From: Candidatus Nitrospira neomarina
Lineage (GTDB): Bacteria > Nitrospirota > Nitrospiria > Nitrospirales > UBA8639
Direction: 5' to 3'
DNA length: 64,000 nt
NCBI RefSeq assembly: GCF_032051675.1
Contig: NZ_CP116968.1
Span: 4,209,001-4,273,000 of the forward strand
A program made the position numbers and the translations under genes. This document shows, in pieces, positions 19,376-26,511 of this stretch. The notes below the pieces were generated by a model that did not search any database, had not been told where the DNA came from, and saw only the letters and a program-made list of their open reading frames with translations. Position 1 is the stretch's first letter, and the number at the start of each line of letters is the position of its first letter.

Positions 19376-20542
19376 ATGAAGACCTCTGAATTCTCGAAAC
19401 ATGTTCCGGTTTCATTGGGAGATCGGAGTTATCAAGTCCTCATTCAACCTCAAATTCTGCCTCAAATAGGCCGTGTGCTTCAGGATGTTGGATTGTCAGG
19501 ACGAGTTGCCATTGTGACCAATCCAGTCGTCAATGAACTCTATGGGCGGGTAGTTTCCCGTGCCTTAAAGCGGTGTGGATTTTCTCCATTTCTTGTGGTG
19601 ATACCCGATGGAGAAAAGGCCAAATCCATGTATTGGCTGTCAAAAATACTGGATGAACTGGTTACCCAACGACTTGAACGCCAGGAAATTGTGTTAGCGT
19701 TAGGTGGAGGGGTCGTGGGAGATGTGGCGGGTTTTGCCGCCTCTGTTTATCTGCGAGGTGTTTCGTTTGTCCAAGTGCCGACGACATTGGTGGCTCAAGT
19801 AGATTCAAGTGTGGGTGGGAAAACAGGGGTGAACCATCCAATGGGGAAAAATTTGATCGGGGCGTTTTATCAGCCACGTGTTGTGGTTATTGACCCGCAG
19901 ACTTTGCAATCTTTACCAAAACGTGAATGGGTAGCAGGGTTAGCGGAGGTGATTAAGTATGGCATGATTGCGGATCCGAAGTTTTTTGAATATTTAGAAC
20001 AACACGTGGATGACCTACGTGAACAAGCAGAGGATGTCATCCCGACCGTCATTCGGCGGTGTTGTGAAATTAAAGCCGAAGTCGTGGGTGGAGATGAACG
20101 GGAATCGGGACGCAGACGCATTTTAAATTATGGCCACACCGTAGGCCATGCACTGGAAACCTGGGGTCGTTATAGAACATGGATTCATGGAGAAGCGGTG
20201 GGAATTGGCATGGTGCAGGAAGCCGCCATGGCACATTTTTTAGGGTTGTGTACGAAGGAGCTGGTTGAGCGGCAACGCGACTTGATTCAGGATGTTGGGT
20301 TACCCGTTGCCATGCCTTCCATGACTTTTCTGGATCTCTGGGGGGCCATGCAACACGACAAAAAGGTCGTAAAGGGTCAAATCAATTGCGTGGTACCCAC
20401 CACAATCGGGAAGGTCAAGGTCGTTCCCCTGGTTCGACAACGTATTCGCCAATGGTTTACTGCGAGTCAGTCCTCTCGTGGGAAACGATTGGAGCCTGTT
20501 CCACAGGCAGTGAGCCGTCCACATCTATCCAAGAAAAAATAA
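19376..20542 (+). CDS. aroB: 3-dehydroquinate synthase
   Basis: Converts DAHP to 3-dehydroquinate using NAD and a divalent metal. Landmarks are ALGGGVVGDVAGFAASVYLRG, VPTTLVAQVDSSVGGKTGVNH and the metal-binding ILNYGHTVGHALE. The 388-aa protein is slightly longer than usual because of a basic C-terminal tail (from about residue 370). Its stop is one base before the start of the GAF-GAF-ANTAR gene, so they are likely cotranscribed. Confidence 0.96.
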   Translation: MKTSEFSKHVPVSLGDRSYQVLIQPQILPQIGRVLQDVGLSGRVAIVTNPVVNELYGRVVSRALKRCGFSPFLVVIPDGEKAKSMYWLSKILDELVTQRLERQEIVLALGGGVVGDVAGFAASVYLRGVSFVQVPTTLVAQVDSSVGGKTGVNHPMGKNLIGAFYQPRVVVIDPQTLQSLPKREWVAGLAEVIKYGMIADPKFFEYLEQHVDDLREQAEDVIPTVIRRCCEIKAEVVGGDERESGRRRILNYGHTVGHALETWGRYRTWIHGEAVGIGMVQEAAMAHFLGLCTKELVERQRDLIQDVGLPVAMPSMTFLDLWGAMQHDKKVVKGQINCVVPTTIGKVKVVPLVRQRIRQWFTASQSSRGKRLEPVPQAVSRPHLSKKK

Positions 20543-20543
20543 C

Positions 20544-21797
20544 ATGGCTTCGATCCGTCCTTCGACTATGGAAGACCTCAAGCACCTTGTTCGGGAGCGG
20601 ACCCGTGAAGTGCAGATTCTTCACCGAATTAGCGAATCCATCAGTAGTACTTTGGAGCTGGAAACGGTATTAAAGCAAATCGTGGAAGTGGTGGTGGAGG
20701 TGACGAAGGGGGATGCCTGTCTATTGTATTTGATCTCTGAAACAACAGACGAGCTTATTTTACGTGCATCGAAAAATCCTCATCCCCGTCTTATCGGGAG
20801 GATATCCATCGGTTTGGGAGAAGGGATTACCGGCTGGGTGGCACGGGAAAAAATTCCCGTGGTGATTCCTCGCAATGCAAGTGATGACGCCAGATTTAAG
20901 TTTTTTCATCGTCTGCCGGAAGATCGCTATCAGGCGTTTGTGTCAGTTCCCATTACGAGTAAGGGGAAAATGGTCGGTGTCATTAATGTTCAACATAAGC
21001 GGTCAAAGCGGTATGCTGAAGAGACGCTCGCGCTCTTACTGACCATTGCTAATCAAGTCGGCGGGGCCATTGCCAATGCCAGATTGTACGATGATATGCG
21101 ACAAAAAGCGCGTCGACTTGAAACGCTTTCCCAAGTATCGGAAACGGTGGCTTCGAATCGACTGATAGAGGATGTGCTGCAATTAATTGTCACCATGACC
21201 GCTCAGCTGATGAATTCAAAAATTTGCTCGATCATGCTTGTCGACCAGGAGTCTGGGGAATTACGTATTGCAGCCACTCAAAGCCTGAGTGATGCGTACC
21301 GGAGGAAGCCACCGTTGAAGGTTGGGCAGAGCATGAGCGGCCGAGCGGTGCAGGATCACCATCCGGTGTATGTCCCGGATGTGAAGGCAGAAGATGGGTA
21401 TTTTTATCGGGATTTGGCGAAACAGGAAGGATTGCATTCTTTATTGTCCATTCCCATGCTCATGAAGGAAAATCCGATTGGGGTTATTAATGTATACACT
21501 TCCAGTTATCATGCGTTTTCAGATGAAGAGATTACCACGCTTCAAGCCATTGCGAATCAATCTGCCGTCGCCATTGAGCACACTCGGCTTATGGAAAAGT
21601 CGTTTGAGATGCAAGAGGCTCTAGAAGTGCGAAAATTGGTAGAGCGTGCCAAAGGGTTTTTAATGGCGTCTAGGGGATTGTCAGAGCCTGAAGCCTTTCG
21701 TCTTATGCAACGACAAAGCATGAATCTTCGGAAATCCATGAGAGAAATTGCCGATGCGATTATTCTCGCGGAGGAACTTCAACGGGCGACACAATAA
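20544..21797 (+). CDS. GAF-GAF-ANTAR RNA-binding antiterminator
   Basis: A 417-aa cytoplasmic regulator. Two GAF sensor domains lie at about residues 35-180 and 205-350, each ending in the typical GVINV and IANQ elements. The C-terminal ~55 residues (VRKLVERAKGFLMASRGLSEPEAF, with RQSMNLRKSMREIADAI) are an ANTAR domain, which binds paired hexaloop RNA hairpins to prevent termination. No receiver or kinase domain is present, so the ligand is probably sensed directly by the GAF domains. The RNA target appears to be the nadE leader 87 bases downstream. The ligand is unknown. Confidence 0.93.
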   Translation: MASIRPSTMEDLKHLVRERTREVQILHRISESISSTLELETVLKQIVEVVVEVTKGDACLLYLISETTDELILRASKNPHPRLIGRISIGLGEGITGWVAREKIPVVIPRNASDDARFKFFHRLPEDRYQAFVSVPITSKGKMVGVINVQHKRSKRYAEETLALLLTIANQVGGAIANARLYDDMRQKARRLETLSQVSETVASNRLIEDVLQLIVTMTAQLMNSKICSIMLVDQESGELRIAATQSLSDAYRRKPPLKVGQSMSGRAVQDHHPVYVPDVKAEDGYFYRDLAKQEGLHSLLSIPMLMKENPIGVINVYTSSYHAFSDEEITTLQAIANQSAVAIEHTRLMEKSFEMQEALEVRKLVERAKGFLMASRGLSEPEAFRLMQRQSMNLRKSMREIADAIILAEELQRATQ

Positions 21798-21847: not shown

Positions 21848-21876
21848 TTGAACGGATTCTTCATTGCTTGTATAAT
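21848..21876 (+). promoter_or_regulatory. Sigma70-type promoter of nadE-glnD
   Basis: TTGAAC at 21848-21853 and a perfect TATAAT at 21871-21876 are separated by 17 bases. Transcription should start near 21882-21884, so the first hexaloop hairpin lies at the very 5' end of the transcript. This gives nadE its own promoter, separate from readthrough out of the regulator gene. Confidence 0.8.
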
Positions 21877-21883
21877 ACCTTAA

Positions 21884-21937
21884 GGGGCGGCAACGACGTC
21901 TTCCCGTATATGTTAGCGTAAAGGACAATGGCGTCCT
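21884..21937 (+). promoter_or_regulatory. ANTAR-type dual hexaloop RNA motif in the nadE leader
   Basis: Hairpin P1 spans 21884-21905: arm GGGGCGGC, loop AACGAC, arm GTCTTCCC, eight positions with one C-U mismatch and two G-U pairs. Hairpin P2 spans 21922-21937: arm AGGAC, loop AATGGC, arm GTCCT. Both loops have six bases with A at position 1 and G at position 4, the known ANTAR recognition rule. A 16-base linker separates them. P2 uses bases 21932-21937, which also form the 5' arm of the terminator, so the two structures exclude each other. Confidence 0.82.
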
Positions 21938-21968
21938 CGGTTCCGATGGGACAGAGGACGTTTTTTTT
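21932..21968 (+). terminator. Intrinsic terminator (attenuator) before nadE
   Basis: CGTCCTC (21932-21938) pairs with GAGGACG (21954-21960). After one G-A mismatch the stem continues with GTTCC against GGGAC and a GAT loop. Eight T residues follow at 21961-21968. The next bases are ATC and the nadE ATG. Its 5' arm overlaps the second ANTAR hairpin, so binding of the regulator should block terminator formation. Confidence 0.9.
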
Positions 21969-21971
21969 ATC

Positions 21972-23762
21972 ATGATGATTCGATTAGCGATGGTGCAGAT
22001 GAATGCGGTGGTTGGGGATTTGGAGGGGAATACCCGCACCATTTGCGGATGGATTCGGGAGGCGAGGAAAGCCAAAGCCGATGTGGTGGTCTTTCCAGAA
22101 TTGGCTGTGTGTGGGTATCCTCCAGAAGATCTGCTCCTCATGCCGAAGTTTTTATTCGATATTAGTCGGATGCGGGACCGTATTATCAAAGTCACGACGG
22201 GGATTATGGCTGTAGTGGGAAGCGTGACGGAGTCCGACCGTCCTGCTCAACCTCCCCTCCAGGATCACGGACAAAATCGAAGGAAACCCTTGAATGCGGC
22301 GTGGGTCCTGGTCAATGGTCAGGTGAAAAGATCGTATGCCAAATGCAAGCTCCCCAATTATGGGGTGTTTGACGAAGAACGGTATTTTCAACCGGGACGA
22401 ACCAGTCCGGTCTACTGTCTGGGCCCGTTACGAATTGGAATAAATATTTGTGAAGACATATGGTTTGCTGATGGTCCCGCTAGCCAGCAGGCAGCATATG
22501 GGGGCGCGCACCTGGTTCTCAACATTAATGCCTCTCCTTATCACGTCGGAAAAACCCACAATCGTGAACGCATGTTAGCCATTCGGGCGAAAGCTAACAA
22601 TGTAATGGTCAGTTATACCAATATGGTCGGAGGACAGGATGAATTGGTTTTTGATGGGAATAGTCTCGTCATGGATTCCACCGGTGTGGTCCTTTCGCGG
22701 GCAAAAGCCTTTGAAGAAGATCTCTTGCTGACCGACCTTCAGATTCCTTCAACACGAACGGGGAAATCCAAGGGGCCTGGAAAAGCATTAAAAATTGATG
22801 GGGAAGACATTCGGGTTCCGATGATCCGCATGGGGTGGACGCCGAGATGGCCGAAGTCCGGCGCTCCATGTGTCAGAAGGCTCACACCGGTAATTGGTGA
22901 GTTAGAGGAGATATACCGGGCACTCGTGCTAGGAGTGCGAGATTATGTGAAGAAAAATGCCTTCTCCAGGGTTCTTGTCGGTATCAGCGGAGGGATTGAT
23001 TCCGCTTTGACTGCATTGATTGCCCGAGATGCCTTAGGTGCGTCCAATGTGATGGGTGTAATGATGCCATCCCCCTATACCTCTAGAGAAAGTCGTGTGG
23101 ATGCTCGTCAGCTAGGAAAAAAATTGGGAATCGAGATGCGGCATCTTTCGATAACGAGAGTGTTTAAGGCTTTGCTTGGGGTGTTGGACAAGTCCTTTCA
23201 GGGTTCTCAGGCTGATTCGACGGAAGAAAATTTGCAAGCTCGCATCCGAGGAACACTGCTGATGGCTCTTTCCAATAAATTCGGGTATTTAGTACTGACC
23301 ACGGGAAATAAAAGCGAAATGAGTGTGGGATATGCCACGCTGTACGGCGATATGGCTGGTGGGTTTGCCGTGATCAAAGATATTCCCAAAACGAAGGTGT
23401 ATGAGCTTTCTCGTTGGCGAAGTGAGTATAGGGGCTCCAATTTTGACCGGGTGATTATTCCTGAAAGAATTCAGGTGCGTGCTCCTTCTGCGGAGTTGAG
23501 GCCCGATCAGACGGATCAGGATACCCTCCCTCCCTATCCGGTCTTAGATGCAATTCTACAAGCCTATGTTGAGGACAATGAGTCAATGGGCAGAATTGTG
23601 AAGATGGGCTATGATTCTCATATTGTGCGAACTGTCATGGGGATGGTGGATCGGAGCGAATACAAGCGTCGACAAGCGCCAGTAGGCATTAAAATTACCT
23701 CGAGAGCGTTAGGAAAGGATCGGCGCATGCCGATTACAAACCGATATTTTTCTGGAGCTTAA
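21972..23762 (+). CDS. nadE: Glutamine-dependent NAD(+) synthetase
   Basis: Final step of NAD synthesis: deamido-NAD + ATP + glutamine to NAD. The 596-aa protein is a fusion. An N-terminal nitrilase-type glutaminase shows the triad regions VVVFPELAVCGYPPEDLL (Glu), YAKCKLPNYGVFDE (Lys) and INICEDIW (Cys). A C-terminal synthetase has the PP-loop VGISGGIDSALTALIA and TTGNKSEMSVGYATLYGDMAGG. The start may be ATG 21972 or 21975. The only SD-like sequence (GAGGA, 21954-21958) lies inside the terminator stem. glnD follows after 43 bases. Confidence 0.95.
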   Translation: MMIRLAMVQMNAVVGDLEGNTRTICGWIREARKAKADVVVFPELAVCGYPPEDLLLMPKFLFDISRMRDRIIKVTTGIMAVVGSVTESDRPAQPPLQDHGQNRRKPLNAAWVLVNGQVKRSYAKCKLPNYGVFDEERYFQPGRTSPVYCLGPLRIGINICEDIWFADGPASQQAAYGGAHLVLNINASPYHVGKTHNRERMLAIRAKANNVMVSYTNMVGGQDELVFDGNSLVMDSTGVVLSRAKAFEEDLLLTDLQIPSTRTGKSKGPGKALKIDGEDIRVPMIRMGWTPRWPKSGAPCVRRLTPVIGELEEIYRALVLGVRDYVKKNAFSRVLVGISGGIDSALTALIARDALGASNVMGVMMPSPYTSRESRVDARQLGKKLGIEMRHLSITRVFKALLGVLDKSFQGSQADSTEENLQARIRGTLLMALSNKFGYLVLTTGNKSEMSVGYATLYGDMAGGFAVIKDIPKTKVYELSRWRSEYRGSNFDRVIIPERIQVRAPSAELRPDQTDQDTLPPYPVLDAILQAYVEDNESMGRIVKMGYDSHIVRTVMGMVDRSEYKRRQAPVGIKITSRALGKDRRMPITNRYFSGA

Positions 23763-23805
23763 CCTGAATGTGTGACATGGTGAGTGCTGGCGGGAGTTGC
23801 CCTCG

Positions 23806-26511
23806 ATGAGTGAAGGGATGCCTTTGCCCCCTACCGGTTTGACGGAACACAAGGACTCCTCTCTGGGCCTTCATGTTCTCCAGTCCCAGCGCGAGGTTCT
23901 TCGCCAACGCTTAATTGAAGGAGCGACCGGCAGTGAGATCACCCAGGCTTTTTCGGATTTCATGGATGCTTTACTGATCGCGCGATTTCGGGAGGTCATT
24001 CAGCAAGGCAATGCAGGTGTGCGAGCCGGCTGGCAGCAATGCTGTTTAGTGGCCATGGGGGGGTATGGGCGGAGGGAGTTAGCTCCCTATTCCGACATTG
24101 ATGTGATGATTCTCACTCAGGGCAATCAAAGGGAAGTCGCTGAGGCACTGTCTACCGGAGTCTTTCATCGGCTTTGGGATCTTGGGTTTCAAGTTGGGCA
24201 TAGTGTGCGGTCCCTCGCAGAATGCCTGACGATTGCAGAAGCCGATCTGGCGGCCTGTACCTCATTGATGGAATCGCGATTTCTTATCGGCAGTGCTTTA
24301 GTGTTTCAGGAATTTCAACGGAAATTCGAACGTCGGATCATCAAGAAACGGGCGCAACGGTTTGTTCTGGATAAAATTCAAGAGCGTGAAAGAGAGTATG
24401 CCAAATTTGGTGAGACTGTCTTTATGCTGGAACCGAATATTAAAAAAAGTAAGGGTGGGCTTCGGGATCTGCATTTGCTGCAATGGGTTGGCCAGGCCCG
24501 ATATGGAGCGGGGACGATTCAAGAACTCTCGAATCGGGGAATCATTGCTATTCAGGATTATCAGGTTCTGCAAGACGCACAGGAATTTCTCTGGCGGGTT
24601 CGGTGTTTTTTGCATTTTGAAGCGGGACGGGCTCAAGATATCCTCACGTTCGACGATCAGGTCCGGCTCTCTGCACTTTGGGGATTTGTGGATCATCCTC
24701 ATTTGTTGGCCGTTGAGCAATTTATGCAAGTGTATTTCCGTCATACGACCGGGTTGTTTGACCGTGGGCGGCGGTTTCTTGATCAAGCCCGGGCGAAATC
24801 CTGGTTGGACCGGGTTCGCCAATGGTGGCCTCCTCCATTAATTGAGGGGCACTTCCGTATTCTGGAGAATCGATTGACAATTCAGACGGATAAGCTCCTT
24901 GAGGTGATGGAGAGCCCCATGTTGCTCCTGAGGTTATTTGTGATCTCTCATCGTCAAGCAGTCCCCATCGATTCGCGCATTCTCAATGAATTGTCCCAGC
25001 ACATGGGAACCTTACCCAATGAGCGGTTTCATACTAAGCCGGTAAGTCGGCTTTTTCGACATATTTTGTCAAGTCCTGGTCGGATAGTTCAATCTCTTGA
25101 AGCCATGCATCAGGCGAGTCTACTGGAAAAGCTTGTGCCGGCTTTCTCCCGAGTACGTGGTCTCATGCAGTTCAATCAATATCATAAATACACGGTCGAT
25201 GAGCACAGTCTTCTCGCAGTGAGGGAAGCGGAACGCCTTCAAAATCACCAAGGGATCATAGGAGAGGTATATCGAAACATCGCCGATAAAGACATTTTGC
25301 ATCTGGCGCTGTTGCTGCATGATTTAGGCAAAGGGCGTCCTGGGGATCATAGCGAAGTCGGTCAGGAGATTGCCCACCTAACAGCTGATCGGTTGGATTT
25401 ATCTGAAAAGGAACGGCAGACTCTCGCTTTTCTGGTTCGCCATCACTTGCAGATGTCTCATACGGCTTTTCGTCGAGATCTCAACGATCCTAAAACCATT
25501 GTCACATTTGCCCGATTGGTAAGGACTGTCGGGATCCTTCAAAAACTGTTTATTCTGACTATTGCAGATATATCAGCGGTGGGACCTGAGGTGATGACGA
25601 AATGGAAAGAGTCCTTATTAGGGGAATTGTATTCCCTGACCTATGCAGAGCTTGCCGGGGATTCGGGTCCATCATATTCCGGTGATGGGAATAAGAATAT
25701 TTCTCCCGAAGCTCGAGACAAACTTATCAAGATTTTAAAAACCGATCGAAGCGAGGGACATTCTCCGGAACCTGACTGGACGGAATGGGTGAATGCCAAA
25801 CTTCAACAACTTCCCAGCCGGTACGTTCAGTCGACACCGGTTGATCAAATGGCGGCGTACCTCTTAGCCATTCGTGCTCTACCTGTCAAGCCGACACATG
25901 TGGAAGCCAGATTCAATCAGGCATCTGGTGTTACGGAGTATGTGCTGATCACCCGTGAACAGACCAAACCCGGTATTTTTATGCAGGTGGCTGGAGTGTT
26001 AGCAGCTATGGGTTTGCAGGTATTGGAAGCGCAAATTATGACATTGAAGGATGGCACGGTGTGGGATGTGTTCTCGGTACATGATTCAGATTATGAAGGG
26101 CCGCCATCTGCCGGACGCCTAGAGGAGGTGGCAAAAGAAATTCAAGAGGTCGTGGAAGGAAGACAATCAGTTCACCAAATGGTTGAACGACGACAGCGCA
26201 TGGCCCTTGGTCGTCCCTTTCCTACGGGCCGACATCCCACGGAAGTGCATATTGATCATGGAGTCTCAGATGCCTTTACGGTGATTGACCTCTTTGCCGA
26301 TGACAAGCAAGGGTTGCTCTTTGTGATCGCCAAAACACTGGTTCAATTGGGTCTTTCAATTCATATGGCCAGAATCGGGACCAGGTTAGATCAGGTGGCC
26401 GATGTTTTTTATGTGACCAATTTTCATGGAGAAAAAATTCTTTCCGGTGAAGATTGTGAGCAAATTCAACTTACTCTTCACGCCGCGGTTGATCAATTTC
26501 TGGATGAATAA
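23806..26511 (+). CDS. glnD: PII uridylyltransferase / uridylyl-removing enzyme GlnD
   Basis: Bifunctional nitrogen sensor that uridylylates PII proteins when glutamine is low and removes UMP when it is high. Domains in order: nucleotidyltransferase (MGGYGRRELAPYSDIDVMIL), GlnD helical region (GGLRDLHLLQW), HD hydrolase (LLLHDLGKGRPGDHSEVG, about residue 500) and two C-terminal ACT domains that bind glutamine. ATG 23806 has GGGAG nine bases upstream and gives 901 aa; the frame extends to a TTG at 23797. Probably cotranscribed with nadE. Confidence 0.96.
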   Translation: MSEGMPLPPTGLTEHKDSSLGLHVLQSQREVLRQRLIEGATGSEITQAFSDFMDALLIARFREVIQQGNAGVRAGWQQCCLVAMGGYGRRELAPYSDIDVMILTQGNQREVAEALSTGVFHRLWDLGFQVGHSVRSLAECLTIAEADLAACTSLMESRFLIGSALVFQEFQRKFERRIIKKRAQRFVLDKIQEREREYAKFGETVFMLEPNIKKSKGGLRDLHLLQWVGQARYGAGTIQELSNRGIIAIQDYQVLQDAQEFLWRVRCFLHFEAGRAQDILTFDDQVRLSALWGFVDHPHLLAVEQFMQVYFRHTTGLFDRGRRFLDQARAKSWLDRVRQWWPPPLIEGHFRILENRLTIQTDKLLEVMESPMLLLRLFVISHRQAVPIDSRILNELSQHMGTLPNERFHTKPVSRLFRHILSSPGRIVQSLEAMHQASLLEKLVPAFSRVRGLMQFNQYHKYTVDEHSLLAVREAERLQNHQGIIGEVYRNIADKDILHLALLLHDLGKGRPGDHSEVGQEIAHLTADRLDLSEKERQTLAFLVRHHLQMSHTAFRRDLNDPKTIVTFARLVRTVGILQKLFILTIADISAVGPEVMTKWKESLLGELYSLTYAELAGDSGPSYSGDGNKNISPEARDKLIKILKTDRSEGHSPEPDWTEWVNAKLQQLPSRYVQSTPVDQMAAYLLAIRALPVKPTHVEARFNQASGVTEYVLITREQTKPGIFMQVAGVLAAMGLQVLEAQIMTLKDGTVWDVFSVHDSDYEGPPSAGRLEEVAKEIQEVVEGRQSVHQMVERRQRMALGRPFPTGRHPTEVHIDHGVSDAFTVIDLFADDKQGLLFVIAKTLVQLGLSIHMARIGTRLDQVADVFYVTNFHGEKILSGEDCEQIQLTLHAAVDQFLDE

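Follow-up and report, generated by a model that had tools for sequence, protein, structure and literature searches.

The closest described counterparts of the leader reported here are RNA attenuators controlled by ANTAR proteins. In the eut attenuators, lengthening of the linker between the two hairpins is harmful (PMC3369931, PMC8934654), and induction of eutP in Enterococcus faecalis was sharply cut when its linker was lengthened to 14 nt (PMC3369931). A short linker is a feature of eut and not of the whole class, since the general ANTAR consensus permits a linker of variable length (PMC3369931). Walshe et al. (PMC8934654) argued for one hexaloop as the minimal ANTAR binding site. As to targets, ANTAR control of glutamate synthase and nitrogenase (PMC3369931) and NasT control of nap and nos (PMC6759348) have been predicted or shown in other bacteria.

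Here we describe a leader (21883-21968) in front of nadE-glnD, found in a 64-kb stretch of DNA (the window). A preliminary description had read it as an ANTAR-controlled attenuator, and we consider it very probable that it is an ANTAR-responsive transcription attenuator whose regulator acts by antitermination. The features are listed in Table 1.

The nadE leader and its neighbouring ANTAR gene

Table 1. Coordinates of the leader, the surrounding genes and the further leaders in the same genome (window positions unless prefixed)
Feature	Position	Strand	Evidence
aroB (dehydroquinate synthase), neighbour outside the switch, directly 5' of the ANTAR gene	19376..20542	+	Pfam
GAF-GAF-ANTAR regulator gene, 417 aa; ANTAR domain at residues 356-407	20544..21797	+	Pfam
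Sigma-70-type promoter, TTGAAC-17-TATAAT	21848..21876	+	10/12 matches; -10 box at the same place in relatives
P1 hairpin, hexaloop AACGAC (A1, G4)	21884..21905	+	Sequence; stem pairing in relatives
P1-P2 linker, 16 nt	21906..21921	+	Sequence; distance variable in relatives
P2 (antiterminator) hairpin, hexaloop AATGGC (A1, G4)	21922..21937	+	Sequence; family-wide conservation
Intrinsic terminator with eight Ts	21932..21968	+	RNAfold; covariation
nadE, glutamine-dependent NAD+ synthetase (target)	21972..23762	+	Pfam CN_hydrolase and NAD_synthase; NF010588, 714.7 bits
glnD, [protein-PII] uridylyltransferase (second target)	23797..26511	+	TIGR01693, 705.2 bits, above cut-off
ANTAR-type leader before nirC-nirA	C1:2443984-2444035 = L225 4985-5036	-	R1, E 4e-4
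ANTAR-type leader before porin-amtB-glnK	C1:1467525-1467578 = L226 3026-3079	-	Weak R1, E 0.04

The gene upstream of the leader had been called a GAF-GAF-ANTAR gene, which Pfam bore out with matches to GAF_2, GAF and ANTAR (3.7e-21; 75 bits); no other ANTAR protein is encoded in the 4.8-Mb genome. Profile matches likewise upheld the identities of the two downstream genes, nadE and glnD. The gene order aroB-ANTAR is preserved in relatives and nadE-glnD within the family. The closest solved ANTAR domains are those of Rv1626 (1s8n), EutV (6wsh) and NasR (4akk). When the RNA-contact residues of EutV (PMC8934654) were aligned with the regulator, nine of the 11 were identical or conservative (R142=R363, K143=K364, K147=R368, K149=K370, E160=E381, Y164=F385, M172=M393, N173=N394 and R175=R396), the mismatches being R168 to Q389 and R177 to S398. 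The kept contacts include F385, for aromatic stacking on G4, and M393, the methionine plug, and R363, K364, K370, E381, M393 and R396 are invariant among 20 relatives.

Direct reading of the sequence placed the promoter, P1, P2 and the terminator where the preliminary description had put them and agreed with it on the A1/G4 loops of both hairpins. The promoter consists of a -35 box at 21848-21853, a 17-nt spacer and a -10 box at 21871-21876, and the transcript would start at about 21883, downstream of TATAAT. It has the top score among five promoters in 7 kb; shuffled sequences give no fewer, so its weight comes from its place and its conservation. P1 (GGGGCGGC-loop-GTCTTCCC) has seven pairs and one C-U mismatch, while P2 (arms AGGAC and GTCCT) has five pairs. 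The terminator stem spans 21932-21960 (CGUCCUC.GUUCC...GGGAC.GAGGACG) and is followed by T8 at 21961-21968. Its 5' arm (21932-21938) contains the 3' arm of P2 (21933-21937), and because of this overlap P2 and the terminator are mutually exclusive, as had been proposed. RNAfold gave -8.6 kcal/mol for P1, -6.3 for P2, -14.9 for P1 and P2 together and -17.8 for the terminator alone, so the expected default of the unaided RNA is termination; the whole leader folds with P1 and the terminator at -28.9 kcal/mol.

A search of the window and the leader against Rfam found no family at the gathering threshold. A weak match to the narK RNA (RF03032) extends from the promoter through P2 (21854-21937), at 16.7 bits against a cut-off of 43.2, and raises the question whether narK RNA might be an ANTAR target too. 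Leader-peptide attenuation was also considered, through the reading frame ATG-TTA-GCG-TAA at 21909-21920, and was rejected; by eye, the stop codon is missing in a close relative (L004).

By itself the fold of the isolated leader is ordinary (z -1.24). A descriptor requiring an A1/G4 hexaloop hairpin and, overlapping its 3' arm, a terminator followed by a T-run found a single site in the window, the nadE leader, and 28 sites in 250 Markov copies of the window (0.11 per copy). The bare geometry would thus arise by chance about once in nine such stretches and is only suggestive. Given this rate and the unremarkable z score, we built the case on comparison among genomes.

Conservation, covariation and co-occurrence with the ANTAR gene

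An orthologue of the regulator was found in 49 of 49 genomes of the family, nearly always directly 5' of nadE. P2 with its A1/G4 loop and the terminator that it overlaps are preserved in almost all leaders examined, and P1 in most. The P2 motif GGAC..CGTCC hardly varies in the alignment behind the covariance model, though that alignment was selected by this very motif. The preliminary description had proposed aligning the leader across relatives as a check, and this alignment showed that P1 and the terminator covary. For 49 distinct P1 hairpins, mostly those of nadE leaders with a minority from other targets in relatives, 270 of 294 cells were paired (shuffles: mean 239, maximum 252). Their loops have G4 in 49/49 and A1 in 46/49, counts partly imposed by the search pattern, in which G4 was fixed and position 1 could be A or G; position 1 is occasionally G. 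In the terminator stem 95.7% of cells were paired, a level reached by none of 500 shuffles, and four pairs were double-changed. The P1-P2 linker varies from roughly 13 to 38 nt in relatives.

The A1/G4 loops had been expected to persist in relatives that keep the regulator. For P2 and the terminator they do, but P1 is missing at nadE in one genus (g2), and three genomes with the ANTAR gene (G057, G124 and G204) have no nadE leader. In the latter the ANTAR gene stands directly before nadE with no leader between them, and the element is present elsewhere in the genome. In the genus g2 the nadE leaders (L031, L035, L036, L038, L040, L042 and L043) have P2 and the terminator; the loss of P1 appears to be a deletion in the loop region (AAGAGACGACTC in L035 versus AAGAGACAATGACGTCTCAT in L030), and P1-like hairpins are retained at the amtB and urt sites. 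A genome of a more distant family (G224, L100) carries a tandem pair of single hexaloop-terminator units about 50-110 nt before nadE, with nadE and the ANTAR gene on different contigs.

Linkage between the leader and the ANTAR gene is often broken in the sister family (including Nitrospira defluvii, L130), where nadE is frequently distant from the ANTAR gene. Even so, nadE retains the dual hexaloop and terminator, both where about 18 kb separate it from the ANTAR gene and where the two genes are on different contigs. We combined the element search with the ANTAR search for 118 genomes of the order, filling unlisted rows by set arithmetic, and found both in 87, the ANTAR gene alone in five, the RNA alone in one and neither in 25. 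The element thus occurs in 87/92 genomes with the ANTAR gene and in 1/26 without it, as raw genome counts that ignore phylogeny. Most genomes of one sister-family genus lack the ANTAR gene, and all seven of those inspected lack the nadE leader, while four congeners with the ANTAR gene retain elements. Genomes across the order are not independent cases, but the co-loss of gene and leader inside a single genus would be difficult to account for in another way. One genome with the ANTAR gene (G002) yielded no element anywhere in its sequence. The sole ANTAR-less genome with an element (G210; L241 4080-4132, minus strand) has a terminator stem that appears partly degraded, with no long reading frame close downstream, and this copy is perhaps a relic.

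Taken with the conservation and covariation, the co-loss indicates that the leader is far beyond chance, and the reading as an ANTAR attenuator is supported by the covariation, the conserved overlap and the loss of the leader together with the ANTAR gene. The same evidence bears on whether the attenuator might answer to another ligand, namely a riboswitch ligand, a leader peptide or a different RNA-binding protein. That direct ANTAR binding is our inference, that P1 is missing in some relatives and that some P2 loops have 7 nt would all fit such a ligand; yet no Rfam family reaches its gathering threshold, the in-frame leader peptide is unconserved, presence and absence track the ANTAR gene inside one genus, and the loop rule and contact residues agree with EutV. 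We regard a non-ANTAR ligand as very unlikely.

Further sites before nitrogen genes

A covariance model of P2 and the terminator (R1) was run on the genome and its relatives, a search for further targets that the preliminary description had proposed, and it returned extra copies before nitrogen genes in both. Within the genome R1 matched the nadE leader (E 2.6e-11) and two other leaders (Table 1), each of which shows, on reading, a P1-like hairpin, P2 and a terminator and recurs in further genomes of the genus and family. The first precedes genes for a formate/nitrite transporter and a ferredoxin-type nitrite reductase (nirC-nirA), and has a P1 loop GATGAC (G1), a 7-nt P2 loop AATGGGC and a strong terminator. 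The second precedes genes for a porin, an ammonium transporter and a PII protein (porin-amtB-glnK); its P1 loop is AACGAA and its P2 loop AATGAA, the terminator has eight Ts, and the site is conserved in the genus.

Among relatives the element also lies before a porin-like gene with the urea-transport protein gene urtA and before an ABC transporter with cyanase (cynS). Five loci (L276, L279, L282, L284 and L233) carry the form with a 7-nt P2 loop also seen at nirC; the gene downstream in L233 encodes a sigma-54 activator, and the gene after the element in the other four starts like it. The ANTAR protein may therefore stand above a sigma-54 cascade. An Omnitrophota genome that encodes a related GAF-GAF-ANTAR protein has a similar single hairpin (L186 5982), with an AATGAA hexaloop overlapping a terminator, before glutamine synthetase III.

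The common theme of these targets, as predicted from their genes, is nitrogen assimilation, which matches the prediction from ANTAR biology elsewhere (PMC3369931). Because further copies precede nitrogen genes, the nadE-glnD leader probably belongs to a nitrogen-assimilation regulon as one of its sites. As a target nadE-glnD stands, but not as the odd, isolated one that it had been taken for: the element also precedes nirC-nirA and amtB-glnK and, in relatives, urea and cyanate genes, and ANTAR nitrogen targets beyond nas, ami and eut had already been predicted or shown elsewhere. None of the 49 family genomes has an NtrC above the NCBI cut-off (best 472 versus 558.6 bits), a cut-off that may misfit this phylum, and many NtrC-related sigma-54 activators are present in these genomes; the cut-off failures in the 49 genomes give weak support to an absence of NtrC.

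The wider distribution also speaks to whether the hairpin and T-run could simply end the aroB-ANTAR transcription unit as an ordinary operon terminator, the hexaloops being accidental. The position of the hairpin 130-170 nt past the ANTAR stop codon and the descriptor's chance rate of 0.11 per 64 kb suit that explanation, which is already contradicted by like elements at other operons and at nadE genes unlinked to the ANTAR gene; moreover, the element stands between a promoter and the adjacent nadE start, covariation is seen in P1 and in the terminator, and the element is missing where the ANTAR gene is missing. We give an end-of-operon terminator even less credence than a non-ANTAR ligand. 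The least probable alternative is that control by the ANTAR protein is mainly translational, the hairpin hiding the nadE ribosome site through a GAGG in the terminator 3' arm (21954-21957, 14 nt before the nadE ATG at 21972). This GAGG is part of the hairpin both here and in close relatives, and translational ANTAR targets are known in actinobacteria (PMC8164766). Against this, a T-run of about 6-10 follows the hairpin in nearly every copy, and translation as the main mode was rejected because up to about 200 nt separate the hairpin from the start of nadE in the sister family, too far to hide a ribosome site. Hiding of the ribosome site may add to attenuation in the genus itself.

Proposed mechanism and comparison with known systems

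The mechanism of the ANTAR attenuator is of the known ANTAR type. Polymerase from the TATAAT promoter would make P1 first. By default the terminator would form in the cell and transcription would end before nadE-glnD. The active GAF-GAF-ANTAR protein would instead bind the hexaloops and hold P2, which takes the 5' arm of the terminator, and polymerase would read through into nadE-glnD. The same protein would probably act in trans at nirC-nirA and porin-amtB-glnK in its own genome and at urea and cyanate operons in relatives, and would then be a nitrogen-assimilation regulator of Nitrospirales.

From the uptake genes among the targets, nitrogen limitation is more likely than plenty to be the activating state. 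PII has been reported to relieve NadE inhibition under plentiful nitrogen (PMC7196632), which makes the direction less obvious for nadE. The first GAF domain is nearest to those of PtsP-type phosphotransferases and NifA-type activators. Since the related GAF domain of EI-Ntr binds glutamine (PMC4848567) and that of NifA binds 2-oxoglutarate (PMC8219145), a nitrogen or carbon metabolite is a reasonable guess for the signal; our guess is glutamine, 2-oxoglutarate or a similar nitrogen metabolite, detected by the GAF domains.

We lean, with limited confidence, towards a broader reading in which one RNA-binding GAF-GAF-ANTAR protein, instead of NtrBC, would be the global nitrogen-assimilation regulator of Nitrospirales, acting by antitermination on the nadE-glnD, amtB-glnK, nirC-nirA, urea and cyanate operons, with one genus controlling nadE via a single natural hexaloop and its other targets via two. 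In the literature searched we found no paper on how the Nitrospira-type nitrite oxidizers and comammox bacteria that drive nitrification regulate ammonium, urea, cyanate and nitrite uptake for growth, and the data name a concrete candidate regulator, RNA sites and target genes that can be tested in cultured Nitrospira. With nadE and glnD on one switch, NAD supply and PII signalling would be linked to nitrogen status. The genus g2, having lost P1 at nadE and kept it elsewhere, offers a natural test of the single hexaloop as minimal site (PMC8934654).

The regulon, the phylum and the nadE-glnD target appear to be new within the literature searched. The open literature searched yielded no paper that describes control by ANTAR proteins or antitermination in Nitrospira; Nitrospira defluvii might be listed in the supplement of PMC3369931. 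The nadE leader resembles the EutV-controlled eut attenuators of E. faecalis (PMC3369931, PMC8934654) in its two small hairpins with 6-nt A1/G4 loops, in the overlap of P2 with an intrinsic terminator and in the ANTAR contact residues, mostly retained. It differs in that the sensor is GAF-GAF fused to ANTAR, whereas eut has a phospho-receiver with a kinase, in its targets (nadE-glnD and nitrogen genes), in the 16-nt linker against 5-12 nt in eut and in the occasional lack of P1.

NasR/nasF of Klebsiella and NasT of Bradyrhizobium and Paracoccus share nitrogen-related ANTAR antitermination by one or two proteins and an A1/G4 loop before a terminator. Those systems, however, sense nitrate or nitrite (NIT domain or NasS) and target nitrate reduction, whereas here a GAF-GAF protein would govern NAD synthetase, PII modification, ammonium, nitrite, urea and cyanate genes. 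The ANTAR regulons predicted in Desulfotomaculum and Pelobacter (PMC3369931) also have several nitrogen operons per genome with the element, but in other phyla and with other genes (glutamate synthase, nitrogenase). Finally, the control of NadE activity by PII, with PII-nadE gene neighbourhoods that include Nitrospirae (PMC7196632), similarly ties NAD synthetase to nitrogen status; that control acts on the enzyme via PII, whereas here nadE and the PII-modifying GlnD would share transcriptional control.
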